Assembly (NCBI RefSeq): GCF_002007215.1
Contig: NZ_MUHX01000025.1
Coordinates: forward strand, 1 to 39,374
DNA: 39,374 nt
Direction of reading: 5' to 3'
DNA from: Pyramidobacter sp. C12-8
GTDB taxonomy: Bacteria; Synergistota; Synergistia; Synergistales; Dethiosulfovibrionaceae
In this document: piece after piece, positions 2,079-39,374 of the stretch
Layout of the letters: each line of letters opens with the position of its first letter
Numbering within the stretch: the first letter of the stretch is position 1
Translations under genes and position numbers: made by a program
Notes under the pieces: generated by a model
Seen by the model: the letters and a program-made list of their open reading frames with translations, nothing else
What the model was told of the DNA's origin: nothing
Databases searched by the model: none

Positions 2079-2579
2079 ATGCCTGATCCGAAAAAGGAGC
2101 TGCACGATCGGCAGAAACGGCTCTTCGCGGAGATCGTCGCGAGAAATACGGGGCTGAACTGCGTCTACGAACATCGTTTTGCGGCGCCGTCGCGGCAATG
2201 GAGGGCGGATATGGCCTGGCCGGAAGTCCGGGTGGCGTTGGAGATCGACGGCGGCACGTGGATCTCCGGCAGGCACAACAACCCGGCGAGCGTGTTGAAG
2301 GACTACGAGAAGGGCAACGGCTACGCGGCGAGAGGATGGCTGGTCTTTCACGCCCCGTGGAAATGGATCGAGCGTCCCGACGACTTGGCGGCTCAAGTCG
2401 TGCGGGCGATTCTGGAACGAGAACGGATGGAAGGAGGAGGGCGGCGTGATCGGCGAAGTGGAAGGACTGGCGCGGGTGATCGACATCATTGCCAGACGAT
2501 GCTGGAAAGGCCTGGCCGCTCTCCGAGGAGAAGCTCCGGAACCGACGCGCGAACAGTTGAGGGCGGCGTTTCTTCATAG
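2079..2579 (+). CDS. Small endonuclease-like phage protein (PD-(D/E)XK / Vsr-type fold suspected)
   Basis: 166 residues, starting two bases after the helicase stop. Residues ~1-120 look like a compact nuclease: an early HDRQKRLF helix, then ALEIDGGTW (acidic residues on adjacent strands) and later GWLVFHAPW. This resembles the small Vsr/DUF559-like nucleases found in phage replication modules. The last ~45 residues are Arg/Gly/Ser-rich and lie entirely in the 134-base overlap with the next gene, so they look like out-of-frame reading of that gene. An original stop near 2446 may have been lost. It could process replication or recombination intermediates; the fold call is tentative. Confidence 0.55.
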   Translation: MPDPKKELHDRQKRLFAEIVARNTGLNCVYEHRFAAPSRQWRADMAWPEVRVALEIDGGTWISGRHNNPASVLKDYEKGNGYAARGWLVFHAPWKWIERPDDLAAQVVRAILERERMEGGGRRDRRSGRTGAGDRHHCQTMLERPGRSPRRSSGTDARTVEGGVSS

Positions 2580-2994
2580 GCCGTCGAGATCCGTCGCGCC
2601 GGCGCTCCGCTTGAGGGCGGCAAGAGCTTCCGCCGATCCCAAGGACATTCGGGACGAAGACAGCTACCAGGCCGAATTCGAAAGCTATTTGTCCCTGGTC
2701 TCTTGGGAAGAGATCGTGGAGGCGGTCAGAGCCTTTCGGAAGAATCCGATGACGGCGCGAGACTGGGAGATCTACAGCCGGAGCGTGAACCTGAAAGCGT
2801 CGGTTCAGTCCCGGCTGCACTACGGCAGCGCCTATGACCGGCTGGCCGAGCTCTACGATCTGAACAAGAGTACCGTCTATGAAATCGTGCGCCGCACGCC
2901 GCGATGCATCGCCTACATGATCAGTACGAATCCGGGGCAGTCCTGTTATCGGCGCCGCGACGTGGAAGGGCAGATCACGCTACCGGAATTCTAG
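2446..2994 (+). CDS. HTH phage regulator, candidate late-gene activator or antiterminator
   Basis: 182 residues with a GTG start backed by a strong Shine-Dalgarno (AAGGAGG, 2431-2437, 8-base spacing). The C-terminal third contains a helix-turn-helix pattern, YDRLAELYDLNKSTVYEIVRR, that looks like a sigma region 4 or Mor/ArpU-type DNA-binding motif. The N-terminal half is basic and has no recognised domain. Position matters: it is the last gene before the regulatory gap (11-bp repeat array, -10-like box, terminator) and the packaging genes, which is where phages place late regulators such as Q or ArpU. The first repeat unit covers its stop codon. Function is inferred from the motif and the place. 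Confidence 0.55.
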   Translation: MIGEVEGLARVIDIIARRCWKGLAALRGEAPEPTREQLRAAFLHRPSRSVAPALRLRAARASADPKDIRDEDSYQAEFESYLSLVSWEEIVEAVRAFRKNPMTARDWEIYSRSVNLKASVQSRLHYGSAYDRLAELYDLNKSTVYEIVRRTPRCIAYMISTNPGQSCYRRRDVEGQITLPEF

Positions 2995-3082
2995 CCGAAT
3001 TCCAGACGAATTCTAGACGAAAGATAGCCGACGAATAACCGACAAATATCGGACGAATATCGGACAAATAACCGACAACAAA
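2984..3082 (+). repeat. Tandem array of nine 11-bp units
   Basis: The array can be cut without gaps into nine 11-base units starting at 2984, 2995, 3006, 3017, 3028, 3039, 3050, 3061 and 3072. The first four read like CCGAATTCTAG and the last five like CCGACAAATAT; every unit begins (C/A)(C/G)G followed by A or GA, and is AT-rich in its second half. Eleven bases is close to one helical turn, so equivalent bases face the same side of DNA. It begins in the last codons of the HTH gene and ends 5 bases before a TATAGT box. Binding sites for a late regulator, a terminase (cos/pac) site, or a bent-DNA element are all possible. Confidence 0.8.
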
Positions 3083-3086
3083 GGAT

Positions 3087-3092
3087 TATAGT
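3087..3092 (+). promoter_or_regulatory. Possible activator-dependent -10 box for late genes
   Basis: TATAGT sits right after the 11-bp array with no recognisable -35 at 16-18 bases upstream. A promoter lacking a -35 but preceded by phased sites would need an activator. The terminator at 3114 would then lie only about 15-40 bases inside the transcript. Weak on sequence alone. Confidence 0.25.
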
Positions 3093-3113
3093 GGTAGCGT
3101 TGGAATAAAAGCG

Positions 3114-3139
3114 AGGTCGCCTGCGGGGGCGGCCTTTTT
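3114..3139 (+). terminator. Rho-independent terminator before the packaging genes
   Basis: Stem GGTCGCC (3115-3121) pairs with GGCGGCC (3128-3134) with one G-U pair and a 6-base loop, followed by TTTTT (3135-3139). It separates the replication genes from the packaging genes. Confidence 0.7.
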
Positions 3140-3160: not shown

Positions 3161-3211
3161 ATGACAAGACGGGATTTTATCGGTGCGACCGTCGATCGGT
3201 CGCTGGTCTGA
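3161..3211 (+). CDS. Possible 16-residue leader peptide upstream of the HNH gene
   Basis: ATG 3161 has a Shine-Dalgarno-like GAGGAA (about 3150-3155) in front of it and reads 16 codons (MTRRDFIGATVDRSLV) to TGA at 3209-3211. The HNH start at 3215 is three bases further on and has no ribosome-binding site of its own, so reinitiation after this peptide would explain its translation. It could instead be a chance ORF. Confidence 0.35.
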   Translation: MTRRDFIGATVDRSLV

Positions 3212-3214
3212 ACC

Positions 3215-3640
3215 ATGCCCAGGAGAGCGAAGCACCCGTGTCCGCATCCCGGTTGCGGAGCGTTGGTGGAGGCGGGGCACAAATACTGTCCGCTGCACGA
3301 ATCGGAGCACCCAATCCGCCGGTCGGAATACGACAAGAAATACGACGCCAAGCGTCCGGAGTCTCACCGCTTTTACCATACCGCTCGCTGGCAGCGGCTT
3401 CGCAACGCCTATATCCGAAAACACCCATTGTGCGAGGAATGTATGAGGAACGGTCGGATCGCGGTGGCCAAAGTCGTGGATCACATCGTCGAGATCAAGG
3501 ACGGCGGACCGACGACGCAGTGGAGCAACCTTCAATCGCTGTGCATGGCCTGCCACAACGCGAAAACTTTAAAAGAAAAAGAAAATAGAGAAAGAAAAAG
3601 ACACTCGGGGGAGGGGTGGTCGCAATCGCTGGCGGAATAG
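3215..3640 (+). CDS. Phage HNH endonuclease
   Basis: 141 residues. An N-terminal zinc-knuckle-like part (CPHPGC at about 8-13, then CPLH) precedes a classic HNH fold: CEECMRNG (about 73-80), DHI with D89-H90, and NLQSLCMACHNAKT with a second Cys pair. Standalone HNH proteins of this type sit directly before terS in many HK97-like cos phages. There they are thought to help terminase cut DNA at cos during packaging. The start is kept at ATG 3215 because related proteins begin in the same way; it may be translated by coupling to the 3161 leader. The Lys/Arg-rich tail ends 73 bases before terS. Confidence 0.85.
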   Translation: MPRRAKHPCPHPGCGALVEAGHKYCPLHESEHPIRRSEYDKKYDAKRPESHRFYHTARWQRLRNAYIRKHPLCEECMRNGRIAVAKVVDHIVEIKDGGPTTQWSNLQSLCMACHNAKTLKEKENRERKRHSGEGWSQSLAE

Positions 3641-3676
3641 GACCCAGACCGTATTGTGGCCCGCTTTACACGCGCG

Positions 3677-3706
3677 CCCCCTATTTACGAAAAATTCGAC
3701 AGGGGG
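3677..3706 (+). other. Inverted repeat covering the terS ribosome-binding site
   Basis: CCCCCT (3677-3682) is perfectly complementary to AGGGGG (3701-3706) across an 18-base loop; the right arm is the terS Shine-Dalgarno. Folding would hide it and lower TerS translation. A G/C-rich palindrome next to terS could also belong to a cos nicking site. Both are speculative. Confidence 0.35.
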
Positions 3707-3713
3707 TGAGGGA

Positions 3714-4184
3714 ATGCCGGTCAGGGGGCCGAAGCCCAAGCCGGAGGCCTTGAAGAAGGTGAGCGCAAGGTCTCACAAAAAGAAAACGCAGAGCATGATT
3801 ATAGATTTCCCCACCCCCGACGATCTTTCCGCACTGCCGCAGAATGTCCGCCTCGAAGTCGAGGAAATCTGGTCGTTCCTGATCACGAACGACATCGCCA
3901 ATCCCATCGACCGGGGAGCCTTCTGCCGGTACATCGAACTGAAACGCATCTGCGACGAGGCCGCGAAGGACATGGACGAACGGGGCACGATCATCAGAGC
4001 CGGAACGGCGCGCGAAAGAGTGAACCCGTCCTGGCGGATTTTCAAGGCCGCGTCGTCGGAGGCTCTGAAGATCGAAGAGCAGTTCGGCTTGACTCCGTCG
4101 GCGCGGCGCCGGCTGCCTCTGACTCCCAAGGAGGAGGCGAACGGTTATGCGGCCCGTCGTCGGACGAAAGCCTCAAACGAATAG
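3714..4184 (+). CDS. Terminase small subunit, P27 family
   Basis: 156 residues from ATG 3714, chosen over an upstream TTG because a G-rich Shine-Dalgarno (AGGGGGTGAGGG) directly precedes it. The basic start (VRGPKPKPEALKK) followed by an acidic helical core (EVEEIWSFL, GAFCRYIELKRICDEA) and the C-terminal NPSWRIFKAASSEALKIEEQFGLTPSAR match the P27/Terminase_4 family. TerS recognises phage DNA and recruits TerL to begin packaging. The end overlaps terL by 38 bases. Confidence 0.85.
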   Translation: MPVRGPKPKPEALKKVSARSHKKKTQSMIIDFPTPDDLSALPQNVRLEVEEIWSFLITNDIANPIDRGAFCRYIELKRICDEAAKDMDERGTIIRAGTARERVNPSWRIFKAASSEALKIEEQFGLTPSARRRLPLTPKEEANGYAARRRTKASNE

Positions 4185-5844
4185 CTCGCGTTGGGCGCTG
4201 CGATACATCGAGATGGTTCGAAGCGGGCAGATCCCCGCCTGCCGGTGGATCCGCGCCGCCGTGGCCCGACACTTGGAAGATCTGAAGACCGCCGGCCGCC
4301 GCGGCTTCTATTTCGACGAAGCCGCGGCGGAAGACGCCTTGCAGTTCTTCTCCTACCTCCATCACAGCAAAGGAGAATGGGGCGGCAAAGTCTTCATCCT
4401 CTCGCCCTGGCAGCAATTCTTCGTCTATTGCCTGTTCGGCTGGAAGAGAAAGAAAGACGGCATGCGCCGCTTTCGCACGGCGTATCTGGAAGTCGCCAGA
4501 AAGAACGGCAAAAGTACCTTGGCGGCCGGCATCGGATTGTACATGCTAGACGGCGACGGCGAGCCGGGCGCCGAAGTCTATTCCGCGGCCACCCGGCGCG
4601 ACCAGGCCAAGATCGTCCATTCCGAAGCGACGCGAATGGTCAGATCCTCGGCGGAGATCAAGAACTTCGTCACCATTCAGAGCAACAACCTTCACGTCGA
4701 AGACACCGCCAGCAAGTTCGAGCCCTTGTCCGCCGACTACGACAGCCTCGACGGCCTGAACGTCCATTGCGCCCTCGTCGACGAAGTCCACGCCCACAAA
4801 AGCCGCGACCTTTGGGACATCCTGGACACCGCGACGAGCGCCCGCCGCCAGCCCCTCATGGTCGGCATCACGACCGCCGGCGTCAATCAGCGGGGAATCT
4901 GCCGCGAGCTGCACAACCACCTGGAAAAGATCCTCGACAAAGTCCTGACCGACGACGCCTTTTTCGGCATGATCTTCACCTTGGACGACGGCGACGACTG
5001 GGAAGACGAGAGCAACTGGGAGAAAGCGAACCCCAATCTGAACGTGTCGGTCAAGATCGACGACCTGCGCATCAAGGCCGCGCGCGTCAAGTCCTCGCCG
5101 TCGGCGCTGAACGCGTTCCTGCGCCTGCACCTGGACGTATGGACCTCGGCCGAAAGCTCGTGGATCCTTCCCGAAGTCTGGAACGCGTCCGCCGGCGCCG
5201 TCGATCTCGACGCCCTGCAAGGGCGCCCGTGCTACGGCGGCCTGGACCTCTCCACCACGACCGACATTTCGGCCCTGGCGCTGTGCTTCCCGATGGAAGA
5301 CGGCAGCTTCCAAAACCTGTACGAATTCTGGATCCCCGCCGACAATATCGAACGCCGCGTCCGCCGCGACCGAGTCCCGTACGATGCGTGGGTCCGCCAA
5401 GGACTGATCCACGCAACCGACGGAAACAGCATAGATTACGACTTCATCGAACACAGAATCCTCGAGCTGGCGGCCCAATACAAGATCAAGGAACTGGCGT
5501 TCGATCCGTACAACGCGACGGAGCTGACGAGCCACATGATCAACCACGGCCTGGAAATGGTCGAGTTTCGGCAGGGCTTTTTGAGCATGAGCCCGCCGGC
5601 CAAACGCTTCGAAACCCTCGTGCTGTCGAAGCAGTACCACCACGGCGGCAATCCGGTCATGAACTGGATGATGTCGAACGTGGCGCTGCGCCTGGATCCG
5701 GCCGGGAACATCAAACCCGACAAGGAAAAGAGCCGCGAGAAGATTGACGGCGTCGTCGCCGGCATCATGGCGTTGGCGCGCGCGATCGCCGCGGAGGGTC
5801 GCAAGCCCAGCGTTTACGCGAAACGCGGCCTGGTCGTTTTGTAA
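4147..5844 (+). CDS. Terminase large subunit (HK97-type, Terminase_1)
   Basis: 565 residues, a typical length. The ATPase half has an adenine-side helix (WQQFFVYCLFGWKRK), a Walker A-like VARKNGKST (about 116-124) and Walker B CALVDEVHAH (acidic pair near 211-213). The nuclease half has GGLDLSTTTD with D367 and DGVVAGIMA with D534, the usual metal-binding acids of the RNase H-like fold. It pumps DNA into the prohead and cuts concatemers. It starts inside terS and ends ten bases before the portal, so TerS, TerL and portal are one transcript. Confidence 0.95.
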   Translation: MRPVVGRKPQTNSSRWALRYIEMVRSGQIPACRWIRAAVARHLEDLKTAGRRGFYFDEAAAEDALQFFSYLHHSKGEWGGKVFILSPWQQFFVYCLFGWKRKKDGMRRFRTAYLEVARKNGKSTLAAGIGLYMLDGDGEPGAEVYSAATRRDQAKIVHSEATRMVRSSAEIKNFVTIQSNNLHVEDTASKFEPLSADYDSLDGLNVHCALVDEVHAHKSRDLWDILDTATSARRQPLMVGITTAGVNQRGICRELHNHLEKILDKVLTDDAFFGMIFTLDDGDDWEDESNWEKANPNLNVSVKIDDLRIKAARVKSSPSALNAFLRLHLDVWTSAESSWILPEVWNASAGAVDLDALQGRPCYGGLDLSTTTDISALALCFPMEDGSFQNLYEFWIPADNIERRVRRDRVPYDAWVRQGLIHATDGNSIDYDFIEHRILELAAQYKIKELAFDPYNATELTSHMINHGLEMVEFRQGFLSMSPPAKRFETLVLSKQYHHGGNPVMNWMMSNVALRLDPAGNIKPDKEKSREKIDGVVAGIMALARAIAAEGRKPSVYAKRGLVVL

Positions 5845-5853
5845 AAGGGGGTG

Positions 5854-7110
5854 ATGAAAAAGTTGAGACTGAAAATACCGTTTACGCGCCGTTCCTTGGA
5901 ATTGCGCTTTCTGGCGGGCGAAGAACCCAACGCGAAGTGGATGTCCCTATTCGGCTCCGCCACGTCGGCGGGCGTGCCCGTCAACGAGGAGACGGCCATG
6001 AGACTGTCTACCGTCTACGCCTGCATTCGAGTCCTTTCCGAATCCCTCGCGCAACTTCCGCTGAAAGTCTACGAAAGACTCCCCGGCGGCGGCAAAAGAG
6101 AAGCGCCGGACCATCCCCTTTATCCGCTGCTTCACCTTCGCCCCGATCCCGAACGCACCGCCTACTCTTGGAAAGAAACCTCCATGGCCCATCTATGCTC
6201 GTGGGGCAATTCCTACTCCTACATCGAACACGGCCGCGACGGCCGCGTCAAAGCCATCCGCCTCCTCAAACCCACGAACGTGACGCCGCGGCGGCTGGTG
6301 GAAAACGATCAGCTCGTTTACGACGTGAACGACGCGCACGGCGTTCCGCTGCGCTTCCTGCCGGAACAGATCCTGCACGTGCCGTGCCTGGGATTCGACG
6401 GCGTGATGGGATATTCGCCCATCTGCATGGCCGCCGAAACCATCGGCATCGGCATCGCCGCCGAACAACACAGCGCCTCTACCTTCGGCAACGGCGCGAT
6501 GCCCTCGGGAATCCTCTCCTACGAAGGCGAGCTGGACGACGAAGCCCTGCAGCGCCTGAAGACCGACTGGAAAAATTCGTTCTCCGGAGCGAAGAACGTC
6601 GGCAAGACCGCCGTGCTGGAAGGATCCATGAAGTACACGCCGCTGACCATCTCGGCGCTCGACGCGCAGCTGATCGAAACGCTGAAATTCAACCGCAGCG
6701 AAATCGCCGGCATCTTCCGCGTCCCCGGCCACCTGATCAACGATCTGGAACACGCGACCTACTCGAACATCGACCAACTCTCCCTCGAGTTCGTGATGTT
6801 CACGCTGGCTCCGCACCTGACGCGGTACGAACAGGCCATGAACTGGCGGCTGTTCCTGCCCTCGGAACGCGGCCGCTACTTCGTGGAATTCGTCACCGAC
6901 GGGCTGCTGCGCGGCGACGTGAAGAGCCGGTACGAAGCCTACCGGACGGCGATCAGTTCGGGCATGAAGAGCATCAACGAAGTCCGCGCCTCGGAGAACC
7001 TGCCGCCGATCGCCGACGGCGACGAGCATCTCGTCCAGGGCGCCATGATCACGCTGAACAAGGCTGTGGCGGAAGGACGGAAACAAGCCCAAGGAGGTGA
7101 GAAGGAATGA
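5854..7110 (+). CDS. Portal protein, HK97 family
   Basis: 418 residues from ATG 5854 (a GTG directly before it at 5851 is the alternative). The start is close behind a G-rich Shine-Dalgarno. Family features are the early TAMRLSTVYACIRVLSESLA helix, the LLHLRPDPERTAYSWKE segment, and the later GIFRVPGHLINDLEHATYSN followed by FVMFTLAPHLTRYEQAMN. Twelve copies form the ring at the capsid vertex through which DNA enters and to which the connector binds. The stop overlaps the protease start as ATGA, so the two are translationally coupled. Confidence 0.92.
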   Translation: MKKLRLKIPFTRRSLELRFLAGEEPNAKWMSLFGSATSAGVPVNEETAMRLSTVYACIRVLSESLAQLPLKVYERLPGGGKREAPDHPLYPLLHLRPDPERTAYSWKETSMAHLCSWGNSYSYIEHGRDGRVKAIRLLKPTNVTPRRLVENDQLVYDVNDAHGVPLRFLPEQILHVPCLGFDGVMGYSPICMAAETIGIGIAAEQHSASTFGNGAMPSGILSYEGELDDEALQRLKTDWKNSFSGAKNVGKTAVLEGSMKYTPLTISALDAQLIETLKFNRSEIAGIFRVPGHLINDLEHATYSNIDQLSLEFVMFTLAPHLTRYEQAMNWRLFLPSERGRYFVEFVTDGLLRGDVKSRYEAYRTAISSGMKSINEVRASENLPPIADGDEHLVQGAMITLNKAVAEGRKQAQGGEKE

Positions 7111-39244: not shown

Positions 39245-39374
39245 TCAACGGAGAGTTTGATCCTGGCTCAGGACGAACGCTGGCGGCGTGCTTAACACAT
39301 GCAAGTTGAGCGAGGATGGTTTGAGGAGACATATGTTGAATTGAATCATTCGAGCAGCGGACGGGTGAGTAAAG
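39245..39374 (+). rRNA. rrs: 16S ribosomal RNA, 5' end only
   Basis: AGAGTTTGATCCTGGCTCAG at 39252 is the universal 16S start; alignment to E. coli numbering puts base 1 near 39245. CGAACGCTGGCGGCGTGCTT and ACACATGCAAGT follow, and the window ends in CGGACGGGTGAGTAA (about E. coli 105-120). The rest of the operon lies beyond the window. The gene is in the same direction as the groESL side and divergent from PBP1A. Confidence 0.97.

Follow-up and report, generated by a model that had tools for sequence, protein, structure and literature searches.

In the Lactococcus phage TP901-1, the regulator Alt binds four imperfect direct repeats that lie between -76 and -32 (PMC13123087). In the Staphylococcus phage phi13, the late promoter P23 depends on repeats at the end of the ltr gene (-107 to -42), and deleting them abolishes the promoter (PMC13123087). 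AlpA and GafZ act by bypassing terminators located downstream of their own promoters (PMC7969949, PMC11150451). Here, we focus on an array of nine 11-bp direct repeats at positions 2983-3081 of a 39,374-nucleotide stretch of DNA from Pyramidobacter sp. C12-8, a member of the Synergistota (contig NZ_MUHX01000025.1, positions 1 to 39,374); the whole stretch is referred to as the window. The array belongs to a prophage and starts at the end of a gene for a helix-turn-helix (HTH) protein; after it come a promoter core, a leader hairpin, and packaging genes. Judging from comparative sequence analysis, the array is probably a late-promoter operator bound by this HTH protein (probability roughly 0.78). 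In our judgement, the two would represent a new family of late regulators whose operator array is unusually long, the general kind being already known. A first-pass annotation of the window suggested a late-activator platform and knew of no described match. The platform now appears well supported by comparison, that is, by recurrent 11- or 12-bp arrays, by the promoter core, and by an anatomy like that of Alt, RinA, and Ltr. The lack of a precedent does not hold at the level of kind, since the repeats of TP901-1 Alt and phi13 Ltr have been described (PMC13123087).

The TP901-1 locus is the closest in layout. The regulator gene (phrog_2198) sits just ahead of the packaging genes, imperfect direct repeats with an 11-bp spacing in the sequence directly follow the alt stop codon, a core of matching form is present (TATACT-TG-TATTAT; the record reads TATACTTGTATTAT), and a hairpin with a T-run precedes terS, the gene for the small terminase subunit. 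Further Lactococcus Alt loci carry an identical or similar core, with leader hairpins in most Alt loci examined. In contrast to the window, TP901-1 is a Firmicutes phage and has four units, all imperfect, where the window has nine clear ones, and the two proteins have no detectable similarity. Phage phi13, whose Ltr belongs to Ltr family IV, shares with the window the position of its repeats, which the promoter has been shown to need (PMC13123087) and which are followed by TATAATTGCTGTGT and a hairpin with a T-run; its units, however, are 18 bp long and its second hexamer matches only in part. In the Staphylococcus phage phi11, two TGGCAGT sites 11 bp apart follow rinA, and the core TATTAT-GA-TAGTGT (TATTATGATAGTGT) and a terminator-like hairpin lie ahead of terS, although just two sites are visible. 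For both Ltr and RinA the likeness is drawn from DNA layout. The late promoters of phi11 RinA (L157:5340-5490) and phi13 Ltr (L147:1950-2120) each show a -10 element, then a TANYRT-like hexamer, and a leader hairpin with a T-run. We know of no description of this hairpin and hexamer at either promoter. A literature search, with thin coverage of subscription papers, found nothing that links RinA with antitermination.

The elements on which the proposed operator depends are as follows.

2446-2994, plus strand: open reading frame (ORF) for the HTH protein, the proposed late regulator and last gene of the early module (182 amino acids, isoelectric point 9.05)
2983-3081, plus strand: nine 11-bp direct repeats (NCSGA....TA), the proposed operator array; unit 1 overlaps the end and the stop codon of the HTH gene
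3087-3092, plus strand: -10-like hexamer TATAGT; relatives keep its position and form downstream of their arrays
3095-3100, plus strand: second hexamer TAGCGT (TANYRT), matching an NN-TANYRT enrichment in relatives
3113-3139, plus strand: leader hairpin with T-run, intrinsic-terminator-like (hairpin folding energy, dG, -16.9; leader fold -18.3, z -2.2)

The nine 11-mers lie back to back with neither slip nor gap, as the first-pass annotation had seen, although it placed them one base off, at 2984-3082. Lag-11 identity is 0.76 across the 99 bp, whereas none of 20,000 Markov shuffles exceeded 0.58 at any period from 4 to 24; no other signal of this type in the window is as strong. Column information over the nine units amounts to 12.6 bits; elsewhere in the window it averages 3.5 and does not exceed 7.2. 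G4, A5, and A11 are identical in 9/9 units, and C2, C/G3, and T10 almost so. The middle positions vary, from ATTC in the first units to CRAA in the later ones, which accounts for the change of type that had been reported halfway. As the column counts show, however, a single NCSGA....TA frame, kept in almost all units, continues through this change, and the idea of a two-type array was dropped. Unit 1 covers the last codons and the stop of the HTH gene; ORF and domain annotation agree with the earlier placement of the array on that stop codon and ahead of the packaging genes. The array sequence occurs at a single location in the 2.67-Mb assembly. A blastn search with it against phage records returned no match, and a pattern scan with the units themselves recovered this prophage from IMG/VR (L002), together with a single match that looks like chance (L003).

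The layout recurs in relatives of the HTH protein. A profile of the protein gives more than 80 matches, distributed over 51 of 188 Synergistota genomes; in the window, the HTH gene lies after replication genes and before the promoter core. In some loci, two HTH-family genes lie side by side (L065, G027:C7, where each match has an internal stop, and L079, G047:C8), which suggests duplication and decay. Related loci were searched with closer subfamily profiles (profile A1 being too divergent), and for most family matches the downstream DNA was taken and read in gene orientation. When the region directly after the HTH stop codon was tested for periodicity at 65 non-redundant loci (significance p<=0.02, GC-matched control windows), 18 had a significant tandem array, with a period of 11 (8 loci) or 12 (10 loci) and no other. 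Among the controls, 10 of 130 were significant, and these were spread over eight periods. The pooled lag spectrum peaks at 11, 12, and 22-24, more weakly at 33-36, in agreement with an earlier run. Direct repeats upstream of the packaging operon start, as expected of a late regulator, are therefore present as nine units here and as arrays in these 18 loci. Contigs from IMG/VR add more arrays, several of them from phages outside the genome set, such as five 12-bp units (L132) and five 11-bp units (L140). Retention of the period in related prophages had been named beforehand as a point on which the idea could fail; the 11- or 12-bp period does recur. The arrays lie upstream of the predicted transcription start and extend to about -20 to -60.

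At many loci the unit sequences are wholly different, for example CTGTACATTTG (L116), AACTAAGGTATC (L117), ATGTCACAAATC (L129), GTTGATTATGAC (L089), CTTAATGGTACC (L076), and TCCTCTCGTAA (L126). A period that is kept while the sequence is free is what one would expect if the units form a row of protein sites. At 10.5 bp per turn, a unit of 11 bp exceeds a full turn by 17 degrees and one of 12 bp by 51 degrees, and thus the row winds around the helix. The earlier view that the nine sites occupy one face is approximately right, but the drift adds up to ~150 degrees over nine units, and many relatives use 12 bp. A head-to-tail oligomer would suit both spacings better than strict one-face binding. 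Units resembling ACTAAGG are found at L112-L121, L141-L145, L071-L074, L117, and L125, although the HTH recognition helices differ rather; shared specificity or operator conservation may be responsible.

The arrays are followed by a conserved core, TATAAT-NN-TANYRT. NN-TANYRT comes after 30 of the 55 -10-like hexamers that lie no more than 150 nt past the stop codon, compared with 9 of 403 elsewhere. The window core, TATAGT-GG-TAGCGT (3087-3100), fits but for the G at -10 position 5, a departure from the strict pattern. A -10-like box had been noticed after the array in the first pass; the leader terminator beyond it had been overlooked. Transcription is predicted to start at the R of TANYRT, ~3099 in the window. 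The 3' end of the window array is ~5 bp before the -10, most units lying farther upstream, and no clear -35 element is seen. A leader terminator, defined as a hairpin of dG <= -10 with a T-run, no farther than 100 nt from the predicted start, is present in 23 of 32 core loci and in 9 of 192 background windows, with implied RNAs of 39-80 nt; a looser count gives 41/50 versus 32/150. The window leader RNA would be ~41 nt long if the hairpin terminates.

These features suggest the following scheme. The HTH protein, produced from the last gene of the early module, would line up head to tail on the nine repeats where its own gene ends, with one protomer bound to each unit. Located at about -116 to -18, it would replace the missing -35 and help host RNA polymerase to open the promoter at TATAGT (3087), and it is in this way that it probably activates the promoter. 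The transcript would then cross the leader hairpin (3113-3139), a step for which the HTH protein may also be needed, and continue into the genes for the HNH endonuclease, TerS, TerL, and portal. As a result, the late genes would be switched on only once the early operon has produced the regulator. Such a scheme would offer a testable late-gene switch for phages of an almost unstudied phylum, together with a new protein family that comes with a ready operator. A period fixed at 11 or 12 bp over many loci, while the unit sequence is free to vary, would constitute natural evidence for a head-to-tail regulator row.

The protein itself is less informative than its DNA. The window HTH protein matches no Pfam or PHROG family. 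The family has a median isoelectric point of 7.0, with 10.2 for the C-terminal HTH part. AlphaFold2 (AF2) models are all helical with a C-terminal HTH (mean model confidence, pLDDT, 80 for the window protein and 84 for L133). The best viral match in Foldseek is to a phage protein that carries a sigma-70 region-4-like annotation (probability 0.93, E 0.1, not significant), and RpoH region 4 ranks first in a profile search of PDB sequences (E 0.019); a sigma-region-4-like HTH in the window protein can be taken as a lead only. With respect to Ltr and RinA, no Pfam or PHROG match was obtained for the window protein and none at a meaningful E-value for 13-16 relatives, no direct profile comparison having been made. 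Alt matches phrog_2198 and the window protein matches no PHROG, and the Synergistota family therefore seems to resemble late regulators by anatomy while standing outside the Alt sequence family.

Several results weigh against the HTH protein acting as a late activator on such arrays. No significant array is found at 47 of the 65 loci. The genome holds another copy of the HTH family (L066; G000:C10:91223-91705, minus strand), which has a near twin (L069) in the relative G001; it is followed by neither an 11-bp array nor a promoter core, and the same is true of some other homologues. Foldseek with the AF2 models returned no significant match to a regulator, and hhalign of the family profile A7 against Alt gives a probability of 0.1%. 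On average, similarity to a -35 slightly exceeds chance (3.0 of 6, compared with 2.4 expected), and some members may have a weak -35.

The genes surrounding these elements, needed to weigh other explanations, are listed here.

27-728: replication initiator (phrog_8102), upstream of the array
718-2076: DnaB-like helicase, upstream of the array
3215-3640, plus strand: HNH endonuclease, the first clear late gene (PF01844, phrog_144)
3654-4184, plus strand: terminase small subunit, terS (PF05119, phrog_83)
4147-5844, plus strand: terminase large subunit, terL (PF20441/PF03354, phrog_9)
5851-7110, plus strand: portal protein (PF04860, phrog_12)

The alternative that deserves most attention is antitermination of the Q type, for which there is a sizeable though minority chance. 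The promoter would fire alone and polymerase would halt at the leader terminator until the HTH protein, held by the array, loads onto it and allows passage, as lambda Q and AlpA do. The order of regulator, promoter, early terminator, and controlled genes is the one known from lambda Q, AlpA, and GafZ (PMC7969949, PMC11150451), the last two of which pass terminators downstream of promoters. A terminator between promoter and controlled genes is what the leader counts above reveal after the predicted late promoter, and the same order is seen at phi11 RinA, phi13 Ltr, and most of the Alt loci. The second -10-like hexamer near the start could serve as a sigma-dependent pause signal. In contrast, the known sites of Q, AlpA, and GafZ occupy a short stretch between -35 and -10, whereas the window array reaches far upstream. 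Q-like proteins give no significant PDB sequence or fold match to the window HTH protein (the AlpA complex 7xyb is at E 0.72), and the Alt and Ltr repeats have been described as activation elements. Moreover, the hairpin may merely end early transcription, or fold ahead of terS for some other reason. Antitermination and activation of initiation may also operate together. A broader possibility, which we consider rather doubtful, is that Alt, RinA, Ltr, and the Synergistota family are convergent promoter-loaded antiterminators, each of which would assemble in a row on the phased repeats where its gene ends, next to a TATAAT-NN-TANYRT core, and let polymerase pass a terminator ~40-100 nt downstream, within the leader of the packaging operon. 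The promoter core and leader terminator appear common to these unrelated regulators, which makes the antitermination share of 'late activators' testable.

Three further explanations were rejected. Terminase sites are often repeats near terS, and the array is close to terS; a terminase-binding array had been considered plausible in the first pass. Such a pac- or cos-like array, recognized by TerS or terminase, is very improbable. A pac or cos site would be expected to travel with its terminase, but here the array remains linked to the HTH gene and what lies downstream changes: some family loci have a window-like HNH-TerS-TerL order, and others have Terminase_3, GpA, Terminase_6N, or Terminase_2, some with a DNA methylase first. 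The same regulator-array-promoter unit with unrelated packaging modules therefore speaks against a terminase-binding site. In addition, 1-2 kb of genes often separate array and terS, and the promoter core lies directly 3' of the array. There is scarcely any likelihood that the array is a coding remnant, from which the HTH protein formerly gained extra residues at its C terminus. Unit 1 is still coding and one frame is stop-free from 3029, reading PTNNRQISDEYRTNNRQQR, but stops occur earlier in that frame, and the relatives' arrays lie beyond the stop codon of the gene. Half of the relatives' arrays have 12-bp units, which would make a 4-residue repeat, and a search with the peptide was empty. 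The idea of an 11-residue coding repeat of gut phages led nowhere: tblastn of the peptide was empty and a pattern scan gave three unrelated contigs without such an array. Equally slight is the prospect of replication iterons bound by a phage initiator. Initiator and helicase genes do lie just upstream; however, a separate 30-bp repeat (6-91) belongs to the initiator gene, the arrays follow the HTH gene and precede the promoter core, and the Alt and Ltr precedents are transcriptional.

Other features of the window are as follows. The 30-bp tandem repeat at 6-91 (2.8 copies) is at the start of the initiator ORF, is partly coding, and is a candidate origin or set of initiator sites. Between the helicase and HTH genes sits a small ORF of the uncharacterised phage family phrog_503. 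A 16-codon ORF at 3161-3211 (MTRRDFIGATVDRSLV), with a Shine-Dalgarno-like GAGG, lies past the leader terminator and ahead of the HNH gene and may encode a leader peptide. At 39245-39374 the window stops within the first part of a 16S rRNA gene, and thus the contig breaks at an rRNA operon.
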